64,000 bases of DNA, taken from positions 62,001 to 126,000 of the forward strand of contig JAPPHB010000080.1 of the NCBI GenBank assembly GCA_028821195.1. Reading direction: 5' to 3'. The translations under genes were made by a program, and so were the position numbers. The stretch comes from Gammaproteobacteria bacterium (lineage in GTDB: Bacteria > Gemmatimonadota > Gemmatimonadetes > Longimicrobiales > Gaopeijiaceae). Positions 1 to 8,599 of this stretch are shown here, in pieces; position 1 is the first letter of the stretch; every line of letters starts with the position of its first letter. The notes under the pieces are model-generated. The model searched no databases, was not told the DNA's origin, and saw only the letters and a program-made list of their open reading frames with translations.

Positions 1-278
1 GTGCTGTCCGCACCGAAGTCGATGGCAGCCAGGTAGAAGCTGCCGTCGGTGTCGGCGCGGTGGAACTGAATCGCAGGCCCCAGCGCAATGCGCGGGGTGA
101 GCTGATACAACGCCTCCAGCGCGAGCATGGGGCTGTTCATGAGCGAACTCGACGGGGCGTACATCTGGGTTCCCGCGGATACCTCGACGCTCCAGGCGCC
201 CTGTTCGGACTGGGCGTGTACGGCCGAGGGCAGCGCCATCACCAGCCCGGCCAGCGCCAACCGGTTCAGTACTCTCAT
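1..278 (-). CDS. Outer-membrane beta-barrel-like protein, C-terminus missing at window edge
   Basis: This gene is not in the ORF track because it runs off the left edge. The ATG at 278 is preceded by GGGAGG at good spacing. The first 92 codons encode a signal peptide (MRVLNRLALAGLVMALPSAV, cleavage probably after VHA). After that come alternating hydrophobic strands (WSVEVSAGTQMYAP, RIALGPAIQFHR) typical of an outer-membrane barrel. It lies 17 bases after the PorV-like gene and is the last visible gene of the TonB receptor operon. The family cannot be named from the visible part. Confidence 0.7.
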   Translation of the reverse strand, partial: MRVLNRLALAGLVMALPSAVHAQSEQGAWSVEVSAGTQMYAPSSSLMNSPMLALEALYQLTPRIALGPAIQFHRADTDGSFYLAAIDFGADS

Positions 279-295
279 CAGTCTATTTCCTCCCG

Positions 296-1411
296 TCAGA
301 ACTGCAGCTGGAAGCTGAAGACCTGGATGTTCTCCAGCTGCTCCATCGACGTGTAGGCGTAGTCCACGCTCAGCGTGCCCAGTTCCCCGACCGGGAGCCG
401 CAGGCCTCCACCCGCGGCGGCCGCGTGCATGAGCCCGTGGTCGATCTGGTCTTCGTTCGCGAAGCGCTTGCCGGCCCGCACGAAGGCCAGTCCCATGAAG
501 CCGTACTCGAGCCCGAGCGCGGTTTCCTGGGGCGCGTCGACGGGATCGTTGATGTCGGCCATCAGCCGGAGCGACTGGTCCGCGTCCGGAGAAACGATCG
601 CGTCCGCGCCCCCAATCAGGTCCAGCATCACGCTGAAGCGGAACGATGTGGGGAGTTCGAGACGGTCGGTGGCCGCGGACAGCTCGATGACCCGGATGAA
701 ATCGTCGATCTGATTCTCGGCGAACTCCGTGTTCACCCGGCTATTAAGCAGGTTTCCCTCGAATCGACCCGAAGTCCCCAGATTGGTGAGCGACGCTCCG
801 AAGGTGACGCCGTAGAGCCCGGTGCGGAACACGGTGCTCATGTCGACGCCGACGTAGCTCGCCGTCGCGTTGGTGATCCCCTCCTCGACCACCTTGCCCG
901 CCACGCCTACCGTGAGGCGGTCGGTGATGGGCTGCGCGAAATGCAGTCCGATCGCTGTCCCCGTCCAGCTGAAGGACGCGGCGGTCGGATCCTGCTCGCC
1001 TCCATACCCGGCGTTGGGCCAGTTCTCACTCTGCCAGGGCATTTCCCCGGAGTCGAGGGTGTTCACGCTTACGCCGATGCGGGTAAACCCGAACGGCATC
1101 ACCACGCCCACGAAGGTGTGCTGGATATCGAGATCGTCGAAGAGCCGCGCCGTCGTCATTCCGGCGGAAAAGCCGTCGATCCGAGACATGGCCGCGGTGT
1201 TCCAGTAGAGCGACGTGACGTCGTCCGCCGCCGCTCCGAAGGCGCCTCCCAGCGCCTGGCCGCGCGCGCCGACGCCCACCGCGAGAAATGCGGCGCCCCG
1301 GGTTCCGACGCGGGTCACGATTTGTTCCGGCGTCGAGGTCAGCGTTTCCTGAGCCTCAAGCATCTCCGCCGTCGCCACGAGCGTGAGCGCTAGCAGCAGT
1401 GCACGGTTCAT
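296..1411 (-). CDS. PorV/PorQ-like outer-membrane protein
   Basis: The 371-residue protein has a short signal peptide ending near LEAQ. It then shows the family pattern RGAAFLAVGVGARGQALGGA followed by DDVTSLYWNTAAM, in which a conserved Asp and a YWNPA-like motif open a FadL/PorV-type barrel. It ends in Phe (FSFQLQF), as outer-membrane barrels do. PorV of the Bacteroidota type 9 secretion system collects cargo carrying C-terminal sorting domains. The gene immediately upstream encodes a protein with such a C-terminus, 24 bases away, which supports this role by context. AAGGAG precedes the ATG. PorV and PorQ cannot be separated here. Confidence 0.8.
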   Translation of the reverse strand: MNRALLLALTLVATAEMLEAQETLTSTPEQIVTRVGTRGAAFLAVGVGARGQALGGAFGAAADDVTSLYWNTAAMSRIDGFSAGMTTARLFDDLDIQHTFVGVVMPFGFTRIGVSVNTLDSGEMPWQSENWPNAGYGGEQDPTAASFSWTGTAIGLHFAQPITDRLTVGVAGKVVEEGITNATASYVGVDMSTVFRTGLYGVTFGASLTNLGTSGRFEGNLLNSRVNTEFAENQIDDFIRVIELSAATDRLELPTSFRFSVMLDLIGGADAIVSPDADQSLRLMADINDPVDAPQETALGLEYGFMGLAFVRAGKRFANEDQIDHGLMHAAAAGGGLRLPVGELGTLSVDYAYTSMEQLENIQVFSFQLQF

Positions 1412-1435
1412 TGATCTATCTCCTTGGCCTCAGGC

Positions 1436-4400
1436 TCAGCGAATGACGACGAACTTGCCCATCTTTTTCTGGCCGCCGGATTCGAGAACGAAAATGTAGA
1501 GTCCCGCTCCCAGGTTGGTGCGCTCGCGGGTCTGCATGTCCCAGTTGAGGTCACCCCCGCAGTCTCCGGCGCCGCAGTAGGCATCAATCCCCTGGAGATC
1601 CTCGGGACCATAAACGATCTCCTGGATGAATCGCCCCGCCACGTCGAAGATGCGGATGGTTCCTTCCTGGGGAAGGTTCGTGAACTTCAGAACCCGTGCG
1701 TCGGTCGCGCGCTCGAACGCGCTTGCGTGCAAGTACGGGTTGGGAACCACGTGCACGTCGTCGAGGGAGACCGCCCCCGTCGCGGCGGCCTCCGCCGCCG
1801 TGATCGCCCTCTGCACGTCCACCACCACCTCGTCGCCCGACTGAAGCGGGACCAGCCAGGGGACCGTCAGCGTGACCTGCTCGGTCACCGGGATGTAGCC
1901 GGATTCGGTCGACCCTCCGGTGGTCGGATCGCATGAGGGACGCGGGGCGTCGCAGCCGAGGGTCACGTCGAAGGTCACGACCGTGGCCGTCTCCGTCGCG
2001 GGCTGCCCGCCCGCGTCGAGGACCGTGCTGCCTTGGTCGTCGGTCAACTCCCGGGTCACGGTCTCTACGAAGTAGATCTGGTCGCCCGGCACCCACACGC
2101 CCGCCGGAACCTCCACCCGGGCCGTGTCGACCCCCTGTCCGACGAGCACCGATTCCTGGTGGTCGACCACCGCAATCTGCACATCGCGGCCGTAGGTGTT
2201 GTTGCGCACCGAGAACGGAAGCGCGTACGACTCCAAGGTTTCGATGTCAGGATCGACCTCCTGAACGGCTGCCAGGACATCCTCGCCCGTGCTCGAGGTC
2301 GATGCCGCCGGCCGCCCCGACAGGGAGGCGGCGACGGTGGCCTCGATCGCGGGATCCGGAAGCCGGAAGGGCGCGCCGGCGCCCCACGCGTCTGCGTTCC
2401 AGACGATCGCGTACTCGCCGTACTCGTCGCCGCCTACATATCCAGAGGAACTCGTCAGCCACCACACGGTGGGCTGCACCCGGTCCGCGACGGTGTCGGC
2501 CGACGCGGTGGTGAAAACCCGCGACGGCGGGTCCAGCGTACCCCCTGCCCCGGCGTCCACCGACACCGTGAAGAAGGGAAAGTCCTCGCGGCTGAAGAAG
2601 GCGCCAGGGGTGGCCTCGTCGCCCTCAAGGGTGGTCGAGGCGAGCAGGGGGGTGGCCCCGGCGGCGACCACCATGCCGAAGCCTCCCTCGAACACCGTGG
2701 TGCGCTGCATCGAGCTCTGCATCGCGCTGTCGACCGGCAGTTCCTCCAGGCCGGAAATGGTAACGTTGCCGGACCGGTTGAAGTCCACGCTGGCGATCAC
2801 CACCTCGACGGGCTCCCCCTCCATGCCGGTGATGGTGCGCACTGACTGCGCGGCCACGGTGGTCTGGGTGGAGGTGGGCGAACCGGTGTCGTCCAGGTTG
2901 TCCACCTGGTTGACCACCAGCTTGTCGCCGAAGACGACCCGGTACTGTCCGGAGACGGGCGAGGTTCCGACCACAGAGAATTCGACCGGCACGGTGGAGT
3001 TTCCGCTGCGGGAGACCTCGTTCAGCTCGGCCCGGCTGGCTCCTGCCGCGAGGTTGAGCGGCGCGTACACCACCGCCACGTTGGGGTTGGTGCCCGAAGC
3101 GGACACGGCCCCGATCAGCTCGGGCGCGAACACCACCTCTTCGGCCAGCAGCGAGTCGACGTGCGTGCCGCGGACGACGTTGAATTTGGCTCCGCGCGTC
3201 TCGGTGACGATGGAGTAGGTGTAGGTCACCCCGGGGATCAACGACTGGTCCTCGAATACGTTCGGAAGGGTGCCGTCGTCCTCGGCCTCGAAGGTGGTGT
3301 AGGGCTGCCACCCGAAGTTGTTCCACTTGGAGGTCTCGTCGAAGACCGGGTCGCCGTCACAGTCCCCGTCCTGGGTCCAGGTGGAACCTCCGTCGCACGA
3401 CTTGAAGATGTGGATGGCGGCCACGTTGTTGGCGGAGCGTGCCGCGACCGAATCCGCAAGCCAGAAGTTGCGCGCGATGTCCGCGCTCACATCGAGATTG
3501 GCGAGGTAGGGATCGACCCATTCCTCAGGTGTGTCGTCGAAGAAGAGCGAGATCTCGTTTCCGTCGATCTCACCCGTGGATGAAGCCTGGCCTCCGACCA
3601 CATCCACCGCGGATATCACCGGCGGCGGCGCCGTCTCCGGTCCGAGGTACATCTGCTGATAGAAGCCGATGGCGTTGTCCAGGGCGGACTCCATGGATGT
3701 GGAGTCCGCGGCGCCCACCAGCGCCACCACGAAGGGGACGGTGTCGCCGGGCGCCATGTGCACCGGGCCCACGGCGATATCCGAGATGTTCCCGTAACTG
3801 TTCGTATAGCCCGACGGAAGCGTGTCCGCCCACAGGGCCACGCACCCGCGGCTGCCGCAGGCGTCGGCGTAAATGGTGTCCGACTGGCCGTCGTGGTTCC
3901 AGTCCCAGGTGGGTGCGCCCGCTTCACCCTCGCCGGGCACGTACTTGTTGTAGACGCCGGTGCGTTCCGGCCACGCCTCCGGCCGGAAAATGCGGTGGTA
4001 GGCGCCGTCGGACAGGTCCCCGGGCGTCTCCCCGTCCAGCGTGTATTCGCCGATCGATGCGAAGTGCCCGAAGTGGGCGCGCTGGCTGCGGCTCCAGGTG
4101 CGGGGTATGCAGCCCCCGAACCCGCACTGGCGCTGGTGCTGGAACATGATGGTGTCGCCGGCGCGCGGGTGCGCGGGATTGTAGAAGTCGCTCGACGGGT
4201 CGCTGAACAGCTTGTAGCGCGCGTCGCCGATGGGGGTCTTGAGGAACACGATGCCCGCGCCCGCAGCGCCGTTGTTCCAGTCGTCGTCTCCAGTCCGGTT
4301 GCAGCCGGAACCCGGAGGATCGATCGCGTCCGCACAACGGCTCCCGGTTTCCTTCCAGAGCATCGCGCTGCGCACGGGGTCGAAGTAGTGCGCGTCGCCC

Positions 4401-5476
4401 TGTCCCTGCAGCAACGGGTCGACGTTCATGCCGATGTAAACCGAGTCGTAGGTCATGCCCACGCCGTAGACCTTCTCGGACTCGTTGACGATGATGGACT
4501 GGAAGTACATCACGTTTCCGACCGTCGGCAACCCGAAGTAGAACCCGTCGTAGAACTGGGTGAGCCCCAGCGGCCAGCCCGCGTAGTTGGGCGACCCCGC
4601 ACCTCCGGGAACCACCGTGCCGTAGCGTTCGAGAGCGTTCCGGTACCAGTCGCTCAACTCGCCGTAGGTCTGCCAGTCGCCGAGGAATTTCTCGGTGGCC
4701 TGCATCTCCTCCGGGACGCGCCAGAAGGCGAAGGGATCGTAGTCGTTGGGATTCATCAGGTCGTACATGGCCCCGAATTCCGGCGCCGAGGCCTGGAGTT
4801 CGAGATACGATTCGGCCGGGATCGGGTGGCTGCCCTGCCATCCGGACGCGGGATGCGTCCCCTCGCAGTCGGAGGTGGGGGTGAGCTGGAATCCCGAGAA
4901 CATGAAGCCGTCGCGCAACGCCGTGTGATTCGTGCAGGTGGCGTCCTCGGTGGTCTTCGCCGCCAGATTCAGCAGATCGACCGGGCTCCGGTCCGAGGCC
5001 CACAGCTTGTCCCCGCCGCCCTGTACCGCTCCCCCGATGATGAGGGTGGTCATGTTGACGGTGAAGCCGCCGCCACCGAGGCCGCTGGTGGCGGGATCGA
5101 TGACCTCGGGCAGGTCGCTGGCGGGCGCGCCCCACTTCATCCCCATGTCGAAGATCGCAGCGTTGAACTGGCCGTTGGCCTGGCGGACATACCAGCCGGT
5201 GCGGCAGCCGAAGTTGAAACGGCTCGAGAAGCCCTGAATGTTCTGCAGGCACCAGGAGTTGGATCCGTTGGTGCGAACCCCTGCCGCGCCCTCATCGCCG
5301 AAAGCCCGCAACTGGAAGAGGTTCGGGCGCGTTGGGACCACCAGGTCGTTACCGGCGCCCCCCGCGTCGATGACCGTCACGTCTTCCTGGCCTCGTGCTT
5401 CGCCGGGCGTACCCAGCGGCATCACGACCAGGCCCGCGATGAGGAGGCCTGCCCTGTGCGTAAGAAGTTGCTTCAT
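1436..5476 (-). CDS. Large cysteine-rich secreted protein with T9SS-like C-terminal sorting domain
   Basis: The chosen start (MKQLLTHRAGLLIAG) has GGAG 7 bases upstream and gives 1346 residues with a signal peptide; the track's longer start adds 17 unlikely residues. The body is not recognised. It contains many closely paired cysteines (RQCGFGGC, DACGSRGC, YCGAGDCGG), consistent with disulfides outside the inner membrane, and an Asp-rich DWNHDGQSD stretch. The last 100 residues match a type A sorting domain in layout: VVPNPYL, then FDVAGRFIQEI, then GAGLYIFVLESGGQKKMGKF. It sits between a TonB receptor and a PorV-like protein, so surface export is inferred. Substrate and activity are unknown. 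Confidence 0.75.
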   Translation of the reverse strand: MKQLLTHRAGLLIAGLVVMPLGTPGEARGQEDVTVIDAGGAGNDLVVPTRPNLFQLRAFGDEGAAGVRTNGSNSWCLQNIQGFSSRFNFGCRTGWYVRQANGQFNAAIFDMGMKWGAPASDLPEVIDPATSGLGGGGFTVNMTTLIIGGAVQGGGDKLWASDRSPVDLLNLAAKTTEDATCTNHTALRDGFMFSGFQLTPTSDCEGTHPASGWQGSHPIPAESYLELQASAPEFGAMYDLMNPNDYDPFAFWRVPEEMQATEKFLGDWQTYGELSDWYRNALERYGTVVPGGAGSPNYAGWPLGLTQFYDGFYFGLPTVGNVMYFQSIIVNESEKVYGVGMTYDSVYIGMNVDPLLQGQGDAHYFDPVRSAMLWKETGSRCADAIDPPGSGCNRTGDDDWNNGAAGAGIVFLKTPIGDARYKLFSDPSSDFYNPAHPRAGDTIMFQHQRQCGFGGCIPRTWSRSQRAHFGHFASIGEYTLDGETPGDLSDGAYHRIFRPEAWPERTGVYNKYVPGEGEAGAPTWDWNHDGQSDTIYADACGSRGCVALWADTLPSGYTNSYGNISDIAVGPVHMAPGDTVPFVVALVGAADSTSMESALDNAIGFYQQMYLGPETAPPPVISAVDVVGGQASSTGEIDGNEISLFFDDTPEEWVDPYLANLDVSADIARNFWLADSVAARSANNVAAIHIFKSCDGGSTWTQDGDCDGDPVFDETSKWNNFGWQPYTTFEAEDDGTLPNVFEDQSLIPGVTYTYSIVTETRGAKFNVVRGTHVDSLLAEEVVFAPELIGAVSASGTNPNVAVVYAPLNLAAGASRAELNEVSRSGNSTVPVEFSVVGTSPVSGQYRVVFGDKLVVNQVDNLDDTGSPTSTQTTVAAQSVRTITGMEGEPVEVVIASVDFNRSGNVTISGLEELPVDSAMQSSMQRTTVFEGGFGMVVAAGATPLLASTTLEGDEATPGAFFSREDFPFFTVSVDAGAGGTLDPPSRVFTTASADTVADRVQPTVWWLTSSSGYVGGDEYGEYAIVWNADAWGAGAPFRLPDPAIEATVAASLSGRPAASTSSTGEDVLAAVQEVDPDIETLESYALPFSVRNNTYGRDVQIAVVDHQESVLVGQGVDTARVEVPAGVWVPGDQIYFVETVTRELTDDQGSTVLDAGGQPATETATVVTFDVTLGCDAPRPSCDPTTGGSTESGYIPVTEQVTLTVPWLVPLQSGDEVVVDVQRAITAAEAAATGAVSLDDVHVVPNPYLHASAFERATDARVLKFTNLPQEGTIRIFDVAGRFIQEIVYGPEDLQGIDAYCGAGDCGGDLNWDMQTRERTNLGAGLYIFVLESGGQKKMGKFVVIR

Positions 5477-5533
5477 GAGAACTCCGATTGGACAAGTTTG
5501 GCGTCTCTTTGCATACCGGTGGCCCATGGCCTT

Positions 5534-8500
5534 CTAGAAGGTGACCCTCATGCCGGCCGTAATCGTCCTGCGCTGGCCGAGGAAGTGCGGGCGGTCGAAG
5601 AAGGTGGAGCTCGTGTTGGTGTCCACCGTGTTCCCCGCGCGGCGCCGGCTCTGGTCCTCGGAGCCGTCGGTGCACTTCCCGGTCGACTCGTACACCTGAA
5701 TGCAGTTCAGGCGGTCGGTCAGGTTGTTTACGTTCACGAAGAATCCGTAGCGGACGTTGTTGATGGTCCAGTCCTTGCGGGCCTGCATGTTGAGGGTCAT
5801 GAGCATGGGCGCGCGCCCGCTGTAGCGGTCGAACTGTTCGAGTTCGCCGAAGCCCTCGAACGTGAGCGTCGGCGTGTACGGCAACCCGCTCGACGCGGAG
5901 AAGATCACCGAAAGGTTGGTGTTGGCGAACACGTCGCCGAACGGGATTTCGGGCACGTCGTCGCGCACCGCGAGCCGGAGAACGCCGGTGAACTTGTGGG
6001 GCTGGTCGATCTCACAGGGGATCTCGTCGCGAACGAACGGATCGTTCTCTTCCGTCTGAGCCTCGAATTCCCGCTCCGGATCCGCGGCGTTGGTGCGGCA
6101 CGCCGAGAGACCGTAGTTCACGTCGAAGCCCCAGTAGTTTTCCACACGCCGGCGCAGAGCGATCTCGATGCCCCGCGTGGTCGCGAAATCCTGGTTGGTC
6201 AGGACGGCGTAGTCCGGCGCTGAAAAGCCGTAGGTCGCGCCCGGATCGATGACCGTGTAGGGCGGGCTGCCGACGCGGGCCACGCCCGTGAGGCCGCTCT
6301 GGTCCTTCGAGAAGATGACGGCCGAGAGCGCGTACTGGCCGTCGATCTCCTGCGAGTACCCGATCTCGTAGGTCGTCGCCTGCTCGGTGACGAGGTGCGG
6401 GTTGCCCAGGAAGGGAGTCTGTCCCGCCGAAGCGTTCACGAAGATCGCGGGTCCGGCGATGGTTCCCTCGCGCGCGGTGCCGATGCCCGAGTTCCGGTAG
6501 TTGTTGAAGAGAATCGGGTTCTGCGAGAGACGCTGAAAGTTCAGGAACAGGCTCGAGCTCTCCGTGACCGGGAAGCTCACGCCGATCCGGGGAGAGAACT
6601 GCGAGCGGGTATCCGCCTCCGAGAAGTCGTCGGAAGACGCGATGCGCGTGGCTTCGTCGCGGACCTCGAAGGTGCAGCCGGCCAGCGTCCAGCTTGGATC
6701 GGCCGAAACCGTGGAGGTGCTGACGGTTTCGGTCGCCGCGTCGTACTCGCGCACGGTGACGTTCTGCCACTGCGACGGATTGGTGCACACGTCGAGCGCG
6801 GTGGTGCCGTTGGTCGGATCGACTGGGTTGGCGAAGAAGAGCCCGCTCGCCCTCCCGTAGTCGAAGCGCGCGCCCAGCTTGAGCGTCAGGAAATCGTATT
6901 CGATCTGGTCCTGGATATAGACGGCGCCGTCCCAGGGCTGGGCCTCGAAGAGCTGGTGCAGCTTGACCACGTCGTTGACACCCACGTCGTCCCATTCGTC
7001 GTAGGTGAGGTCGTGACCCTGGTAGAACACGCCGCCCGAGATGTTGTGGTTGTCCGAGACCTGCGACTGGAAGTCGAAGCGTCCGGTTGTGGTCAGCACG
7101 CTCTCGCCGCCCCAGTAGCGGTCGGTCCCGGCGGTGGGCGTGTTGTTGTACACCGCGGGACCCGGAGCCACGAAGCCGCCATTGAAGTTGGGGTCCTCGT
7201 AGTGGTTCTGCAGGCAGACGCCGCTCATGACGTTGCAGGTCTCCCGGCTCTGGTCGAAGCGTCCCACCGTGATCTTGTAGGCGGAACGTCCGAAGGTGTG
7301 GTCCCAGCGTCCGATGAAGAGGTTGCGGTCCAGCCGGAGCGAGTTCTGCACCAGGTTCTGGTAGTCCAGAGTTCTGGTCCGCGCCAGGTAGTAGGCGCTG
7401 TCGGTGGCGGTGGTCATGTACTCGAGCGGGTTGACGGCGAGCGTCCAGTCGAAATCGTAGGGCTTGTACTCGCGCTCGTACCCGGCCCAGGAGAGGTTGA
7501 GCTTGGCCGCCGGGGTCGCGTAGTAGGTGAGCTTGGCGTAGCCGTCCCGGACTTCGTCGAACCCGGTGGCCCGCCAGCCGGCGATGACGTCGTTGGCGTC
7601 GGGAGTGTTGAAGTCGGTCGACGGGTTCGACGGGTCGAAGACATCGTCGTCGAACTCGTAGGCGCGGGCCGCGCCGTACCTCTGCCGTCCGGCGATGAGG
7701 AAGCGCAGGTTGTCGCCGGTCATGGGGATGGGGCCCGATATGACCCCTTCGAACATGTCGAACCCGCGGGTCTGGTCGTACTGGTTGCCCAGCCATCCGC
7801 CGACCTCCGAGGACCGGAACTCGAGTTCGCCCTGCAGCTCGTCGGAGCCCTCGGGGGTAGCGTAGTTGACGACGCCCGAGAGTGCGTTGCCGTACTGCAC
7901 ATCCAACTGTCCGGTGAAGATCGCCACCTGCTCGATGGCCTTGTTGGTGATGTCGAAGGCCGGGCCGCCCAGCGCGAAGTTGTTGATCGGGATGCCGTCG
8001 ATCATGACCGTGGTCTCGGCCCCGCGCCCGCCGCGGATGCGGAGGGCCGTAACTCCCTGCCTCTGTTGCGCGAAGGAGACCACCGTGGTGTTGTCCTCCG
8101 GCACCTGCAGGAAGCCCTGCTCCAGTTCGAGGACACCCATGATGTCGGTGACCGGGAGCGCGTCGATCTCGTCCCTGGAGATCATCTCGAGCGAACCGGT
8201 CTGACCCTCCACCACCAGGGGGGTGCGGCTGGTCGACACCACGACTTCACCCAGCGCGATGGCCTCGGTGGCGAGCTGGAAGTTCTGCTGCACGGTGACG
8301 TCGATGGAGACGGCGACGTTTTCGCGCCGCTCGCTGGCGTAACCGATCAGTTCGGCCACCAGCGTGTAGGTGCCGGGGGGAACGTTGATGATGAAGAAGC
8401 GGCCGTTGTCCTGGGTCAGCGACCCGCGTCCGGTCCCGTCGATGAAGACCGAAACGTTTGCGAGGGGCTCGCCGGTGGCCTGATCAGTGACCACGCCGGT

Positions 8501-8599
8501 CACTTTTCCGGTTTGGGCGGCTGCGGGCGCGGCGGTGAGCAGAATCGCCACCGCGGCGATCCCGAGCAGTCCCGGGGTCGCGGAGAGAATACGTGTCAT
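5534..8599 (-). CDS. TonB-dependent receptor with N-terminal carboxypeptidase-regulatory-like domain
   Basis: The start MTRILSATPG is preceded by a strong AAGGAGG 6 bases upstream, giving 1021 residues; the track start lies 53 codons upstream. A signal peptide ends at APAAAQ. Residues about 30-110 form a CarboxypepD_reg-like beta-sandwich (GVVTDQATGEPLANVSVFI). A plug follows (EMISRDEIDALPVTDIMGVL, RIRGGRGAETTVMIDGIPI), then a 22-strand-type barrel ending in Phe. It would import an unknown substrate with TonB energy. It leads the operon with the CTD protein (57-base gap) and the PorV-like protein, an arrangement reminiscent of SusC pairs, although no SusD is visible. A hairpin with a T run lies in its leader. 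Confidence 0.9.
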   Translation of the reverse strand: MTRILSATPGLLGIAAVAILLTAAPAAAQTGKVTGVVTDQATGEPLANVSVFIDGTGRGSLTQDNGRFFIINVPPGTYTLVAELIGYASERRENVAVSIDVTVQQNFQLATEAIALGEVVVSTSRTPLVVEGQTGSLEMISRDEIDALPVTDIMGVLELEQGFLQVPEDNTTVVSFAQQRQGVTALRIRGGRGAETTVMIDGIPINNFALGGPAFDITNKAIEQVAIFTGQLDVQYGNALSGVVNYATPEGSDELQGELEFRSSEVGGWLGNQYDQTRGFDMFEGVISGPIPMTGDNLRFLIAGRQRYGAARAYEFDDDVFDPSNPSTDFNTPDANDVIAGWRATGFDEVRDGYAKLTYYATPAAKLNLSWAGYEREYKPYDFDWTLAVNPLEYMTTATDSAYYLARTRTLDYQNLVQNSLRLDRNLFIGRWDHTFGRSAYKITVGRFDQSRETCNVMSGVCLQNHYEDPNFNGGFVAPGPAVYNNTPTAGTDRYWGGESVLTTTGRFDFQSQVSDNHNISGGVFYQGHDLTYDEWDDVGVNDVVKLHQLFEAQPWDGAVYIQDQIEYDFLTLKLGARFDYGRASGLFFANPVDPTNGTTALDVCTNPSQWQNVTVREYDAATETVSTSTVSADPSWTLAGCTFEVRDEATRIASSDDFSEADTRSQFSPRIGVSFPVTESSSLFLNFQRLSQNPILFNNYRNSGIGTAREGTIAGPAIFVNASAGQTPFLGNPHLVTEQATTYEIGYSQEIDGQYALSAVIFSKDQSGLTGVARVGSPPYTVIDPGATYGFSAPDYAVLTNQDFATTRGIEIALRRRVENYWGFDVNYGLSACRTNAADPEREFEAQTEENDPFVRDEIPCEIDQPHKFTGVLRLAVRDDVPEIPFGDVFANTNLSVIFSASSGLPYTPTLTFEGFGELEQFDRYSGRAPMLMTLNMQARKDWTINNVRYGFFVNVNNLTDRLNCIQVYESTGKCTDGSEDQSRRRAGNTVDTNTSSTFFDRPHFLGQRRTITAGMRVTF

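Follow-up and report, generated by a model that had tools for sequence, protein, structure and literature searches.

In the Bacteroidota, which are well studied, T9SS cargos of type A rely on a general PorV, and those of type B come with a SprF-like carrier of their own (PMC12635249, PMC12618676). In Flavobacterium, the C-terminal domain (CTD) of the cargo binds carrier loops within SprA and the pair exits sideways (PMC10994853, PMC12635249). The CTDs of PorU and PorZ stay uncut, bound to PorV or PorQ (PMC10202324). An older survey placed the T9SS in Bacteroidetes only (PMC4793230), its presence in Gemmatimonadetes has been raised as a possibility (PMC11285876), and SusCD-type PULs have been described in Gemmatimonadota (PMC10469786). 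A literature search, with subscription journals outside its scope, found no description of a PorV-family carrier encoded with a cargo and a TonB receptor. The locus described here appears to encode a PorV-family carrier for a single type A-like cargo next to a TonB receptor, a contrast with the Bacteroidota, where dedicated carriers are of the type B, SprF kind.

The window analysed is a stretch of 64,000 nucleotides (G000:C56:62001-126000) from a 4.2 Mb draft genome of the Gemmatimonadota. Five minus-strand genes with the same direction, namely a receptor, a cargo, a PorV-like barrel, a small barrel and a putative lipoprotein, occupy its start and the sequence preceding it, with intergenic gaps, read from the sequence in gene order, of 57, 24, 17 and 18 nt. 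Their features are as follows.

5534..8599, minus strand: TonB-dependent receptor, 1021 aa, with a predicted signal peptide and CarboxypepD_reg, then plug and barrel
1436..5476, minus strand: the cargo, a secreted protein of 1346 aa, with a predicted signal peptide and a T9SS-like CTD
1439..1837, minus strand: the cargo CTD, about 130 aa, with NPY, F..LP, G..Y and GKF motifs
296..1411, minus strand: PorV/PorQ-family barrel (NF033709), 371 aa, a candidate for the cargo's own carrier and anchor
1..278, minus strand: N-terminal part of an OMP_b-brl barrel, 235 aa in full, the remainder lying before the window (L001:13571-14278)
L001:11777-13552, minus strand: putative lipoprotein, 591 aa, the fifth gene, with a lipobox-like LVAAC, entirely outside the window

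Four tightly spaced genes had been predicted from the letters of the window alone, and this was confirmed by the strand and spacing of the genes. When compared with a genome of another species in the same genus, all five genes of the operon gave dN/dS values of 0.03-0.13, so all five are real genes under purifying selection. The proposed four-gene operon is right as to its four members and has to be extended by the 591-aa putative lipoprotein gene, 3' of which a strong terminator-like stem of 14 pairs is found, also outside the window. Promoter scans gave nothing informative. The second barrel of the original prediction was likewise recovered, truncated by the window start, with a PF13505 score of 39 bits against a cut-off of 28.7. 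The first gene was correctly named a TonB-dependent receptor, its CarboxypepD_reg and TonB plug domains exceeding the Pfam cut-offs; a search against PDB sequences gave no match to it. SusC/SusD importers are recognised by a receptor above the SusC/RagA cut-off with an adjacent SusD; the receptor here lies far under that cut-off (TIGR04056, 47 bits against 368) and the window cassette holds no SusD, so the cassette is not such an importer.

The cargo ORF, which runs for exactly 1346 aa from an ATG at 5476, had no match in Pfam, and its body had none among PDB sequences. Its CTD scored 16.4 bits against TIGR04183 (T9SS type A sorting domain), under the cut-off of 23, and a TIGR04183 search of the whole genome gave no match at E up to 0.001. 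To conclude from that search alone that the genome has no T9SS cargo would be wrong, given the evidence on the CTD. The four motifs in the last ~130 residues of the cargo are common to its relatives, and the lysine of GKF is near-invariant (at least 90% of alignment rows), which fits the lysine conserved close to the C-terminal end in type A CTDs (PMC10994853). A CTD profile of the relatives, run against the complete set of PDB sequences, matched only PorU (E 0.003) and PorZ (E 0.08), in both cases on their own C-terminal CTDs. An AlphaFold2 model of the C-terminal half of the cargo (mean pLDDT 75) ends in an Ig-like part, and a Foldseek search of the PDB with this model ranked PorU and PorZ as the top two, PorZ with a probability of 1.0 over 141 columns; the CTDs of mirolase (probability 0.98) and RgpB (0.89) were also listed. 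By profile and predicted fold, the domain qualifies as a T9SS CTD in the broad sense, namely an Ig-like beta-sandwich with a conserved lysine near its end, and it is the sole CTD match in the window genome. Neither type B CTD nor PorP/SprF models were among the NCBIfam matches of cargo or carrier at E up to 1. The earlier description of a 1346-residue secreted protein with a type 9-like CTD thus holds for length, signal peptide, profile and fold and falls short only at the curated type A cut-off. The model of the N-terminal half (mean pLDDT 72.5) resembles the sandwich domains at the N-terminus of glycoside phosphorylases and of copper amine oxidases; because TM-scores were 0.17-0.27 for the better matches, it is a hint only of a supersandwich as in GH94/GH15-type enzymes.

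A SprA ORF of 2054 aa (485 bits against a cut-off of 200; SprA_N, 61 against 27) is encoded at G000:C56:130637-136801 (L039:4637-10801), ~4.6-10.8 kb beyond the window end. The T9SS core genes had been named as the point to check, and since SprA is encoded in the genome, the objection that all of them are lacking falls. The GldL and GldM models were each unmatched in 150 genomes in searches run without a positive control, a result not taken as proof of absence; were the motor truly absent, energy for extraction would have to come from elsewhere. The SprA gene is single and has comEA-, pilT- and pilC-like neighbours, not other T9SS genes. Across the phylum, SprA was present in 215 of 298 genomes, as against 76 of the 76 in which a CTD was strongly matched (Fisher p 1.8e-13, with no correction for common descent). 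No PorU-type C25 peptidase was found in the window genome, nor in the sampled genomes of its class except for one weak match; long, strong matches were seen only in the six sampled genomes of the other class, f11 (6/6).

The receptor stands upstream of the cargo in 55 of 58 testable loci, and PorV downstream of it in 62 of 64; these counts come from fetched neighbourhoods and pool three locus sets in which some genomes occur twice, so that not all loci are independent. The exceptions to the order are one unclear gene call (L055) and one genome, G184, in which a lone CTD-bearing relative of the cargo (L051 and L104) has no adjoining receptor or PorV. CTD and PorV genes are adjacent in at least 89 of 128 cases among the matches listed. 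Distant cassettes, whose cargo aligns in the CTD only, nonetheless keep the gene order. Another genome of the genus, G162, has neither cargo nor CTD nor cassette PorV, and it retains SprA and one other PorV. Outside f11, the small barrel follows PorV in 37 of 49 testable loci and a gene in the lipoprotein position is present in 32 of 43; neither occurs in f11. The three-gene core of receptor, cargo and PorV therefore recurs across much of the phylum, and the gene order expected in relatives is conserved for this core, with barrel and lipoprotein kept only in most cassettes of the window type.

The named genomes found to carry the cargo family are Gemmatimonadota MAGs, including a bin of the BD2-11 clade and sponge-associated MAGs. 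Four loci (L063, L065, L066, L097) come from MAGs titled Gammaproteobacteria or Kuenenia and yet closely match Gemmatimonadota. In a second cassette branch, a gene for a GWxTD-domain protein lies directly 3' of PorV (L056:10384-11820, L122:10351-11796). At L111:2342-8818, opposite a normal cassette, a receptor precedes a protein of 1128 aa that has a FlgD_ig-like C-terminus and no PorV of its own.

The cassette is expanded in f11, where six genomes gave at least 14, and then 7, 12, 12, 12 and 3, CTD matches, no more than 14 candidates being scored in any one genome. Of 13 further CTD loci, from four of these genomes, all 13 held the full receptor-cargo-PorV cassette, and in one the receptor is split into two reading-frame pieces. 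SusD was matched in 121 of 150 phylum genomes and in none of the six from f11. In the window genome SusCD is not replaced, at least 14 SusD matches being present. Several f11 cassettes lie beside genes for GH28, GH36, GH123, GH66-like, GH2, GH42 and acetyl xylan esterase-like enzymes, as well as ROK, Gfo/Idh, sodium-solute symporter (SSF) and sigma-54 regulator genes. As a statistical argument these carbohydrate enzymes were rejected: 4 of 10 proteins from five random f11 loci, a small control sample, were also glycan-active or sulfatases, and the enrichment argument was dropped because loci of these genomes are rich in such genes in any case. The window cassette itself has no carbohydrate gene and does not lie in a glycan-enzyme locus.

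The reading that we favour, with a probability of roughly 60%, is a T9SS-linked surface cassette in which SprA exports the cargo, the cassette PorV extracts and holds it, and the two together act as a capture module for the receptor. The cargo would cross the inner membrane via its Sec signal peptide and, by homology with the mechanism in Flavobacterium (PMC10994853, PMC12635249), would pass the outer membrane through SprA with its CTD leading. The co-encoded PorV-family barrel would bind the CTD inside SprA, draw the cargo out sideways and probably remain on the uncleaved CTD as an outer-membrane anchor. Together, the held cargo, the small barrel and the lipoprotein may then form a head that binds or processes a compound for the co-encoded receptor, to which the bound compound would be handed for import on TonB energy. 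In f11, the same core, repeated and in some cases near glycan-degrading enzymes, could act as a modular nutrient-uptake device replacing SusC/SusD. The predicted signal peptides, the relationships of CTD and PorV, the gene order and SprA are read directly from the sequence, and homology appears to give good support to export by SprA and to the pairing of cargo and PorV. We infer retention on the carrier from the missing PorU and from the uncut CTDs of PorU and PorZ (PMC10202324), and nutrient capture from the constancy of the receptor and the expansion in f11 without SusD. The original prediction of a dedicated carrier-cargo-receptor set is sound, given the co-conserved core and the presence of SprA; to call it self-contained was too strong, because SprA is encoded elsewhere. 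As to its purpose, given as nutrient capture or attachment, the former now appears the better supported of the two.

Attachment would make the set a cell-surface adhesin or surface-layer system, with the cargo as a structural or attachment protein on PorV and a receptor that is merely co-regulated or serves a separate nutrient. The size and multi-domain build of the cargo and its Ig-like C-terminal part would suit this, as would the sponge-associated MAGs among the relatives and the fact that linked SprF-like dedicated carriers in Flavobacterium often serve adhesins (PMC12618676). We nevertheless regard it as unlikely, since almost all cassettes, in two classes, begin with a TonB-dependent receptor, which one would not expect of an adhesin, and since some relatives adjoin glycan enzymes and sugar symporters; the fold matches of the N-terminal half, though weak, are also mostly to carbohydrate-active enzymes.

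The assignment of the third gene matters for the capture module, as a PorV/PorQ-like barrel could also be an ordinary FadL-type small-molecule porin, with the cargo exported by a general PorV elsewhere and the genes placed together by shared regulation. Pfam gave only a sub-threshold FadL/TodX match, and a second, divergent PorV-family gene does exist at another site (L040:9604-10683, on G000:C38), beside era and a DUF5683 gene and with no CTD cargo; relatives also carry non-cassette PorVs of this kind (L123, L124), and the L040 gene is possibly the general carrier. On the other side, the cassette protein scored 113.6 bits against NF033709 over the full model length, above the cut-off of 90, in agreement with the original prediction. 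A profile of its relatives found the PorV of the SprA complex as its best PDB match (E 2.8e-10), the next matches being FadL-type channels at E 0.008, seven orders of magnitude weaker. Almost all CTD cargos, also those of distant genomes, are directly followed by PorV, which is absent together with the cargo within the genus, and each paralogous cassette retains its own copy, all of which makes a mere porin quite improbable. The PorV, PorQ and PorV2 equivalog scores of 24.1, 39.5 and 58.6 bits missed their cut-offs of 250, 220 and 325, and in a tree the cassette PorVs cluster away from non-cassette PorVs, though not necessarily with a single origin (some rows being long); judged by sequence, the cassette protein belongs to a separate branch of the PorV/PorQ family. 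A PorQ-like gene was also seen in an identical gene string on G000:C89 (L041) and G000:C126 (L042), which would reflect assembly redundancy or a strain mixture, contamination being 5.89%.

That the cargo is instead a conventional type A substrate, cut by a divergent sortase and then released or sugar-linked beside a receptor that is its neighbour by chance, fits the type A-like motifs of the CTD and the nutritional role of T9SS cargos in Bacteroidota (PMC12635249), but is very improbable, since no PorU-type C25 peptidase was detected in the window genome or, but for the one weak match, in the sampled genomes of its class, as against all six from f11, and since the type A cargos of Bacteroidota have a single general PorV in common (PMC12635249), as against one per cargo here.

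As a device for capturing nutrients, the favoured module may differ from the SusC/SusD pairs known so far. More tentatively, and with a chance that we would put at clearly below even, the cassettes could constitute a further class of outer-membrane nutrient importer, a TonB receptor with a T9SS-exported partner kept by its own PorV. In f11 such importers would replace SusCD, several genomes there having a dozen copies or more, and in the class of the window they would rely on SprA with no PorU and perhaps no GldLM motor. If true, one module would link protein secretion to nutrient import and be repeated across a phylum, uptake loci could be built in a SusD-independent way, and the question would be raised of whether SprA export can proceed without the known motor and sortase.

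With type A substrates and PorV of F. johnsoniae and P. gingivalis, the cassette shares the CTD fold, the conserved C-terminal lysine, a PorV-family carrier and SprA; it differs in that the carrier is encoded with cargo and receptor, the CTD falls under the TIGR04183 cut-off and no PorU was detected in the window genome. With type B CTDs and PorP/SprF, such as SprB-SprF, it has in common a dedicated carrier beside the cargo and a cargo proposed to stay bound as an anchor, whereas here the carrier is of the PorV/PorQ family, the CTD is type A-like, PorP/SprF and type B models are unmatched and the set includes a TonB receptor. In the attachment complex of P. gingivalis, the PorZ-PorQ and PorU-PorV pairs, whose CTDs are the nearest solved ones in sequence and fold, keep an uncleaved CTD on a PorV/PorQ-family barrel, as is proposed for the cassette; those pairs are parts of the secretion machinery, whereas the protein held here would be tied to an uptake receptor and occurs in many paralogous sets. 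Finally, SusC/SusD pairs and PULs resemble the cassette in their TonB-dependent receptor with an N-terminal CarboxypepD_reg, their surface partner and their many paralogs, some beside glycan enzymes, but the receptor here is far removed from SusC/RagA in score, and its putative partner, in place of a SusD lipoprotein, is a T9SS cargo of 1000-1500 aa on PorV.
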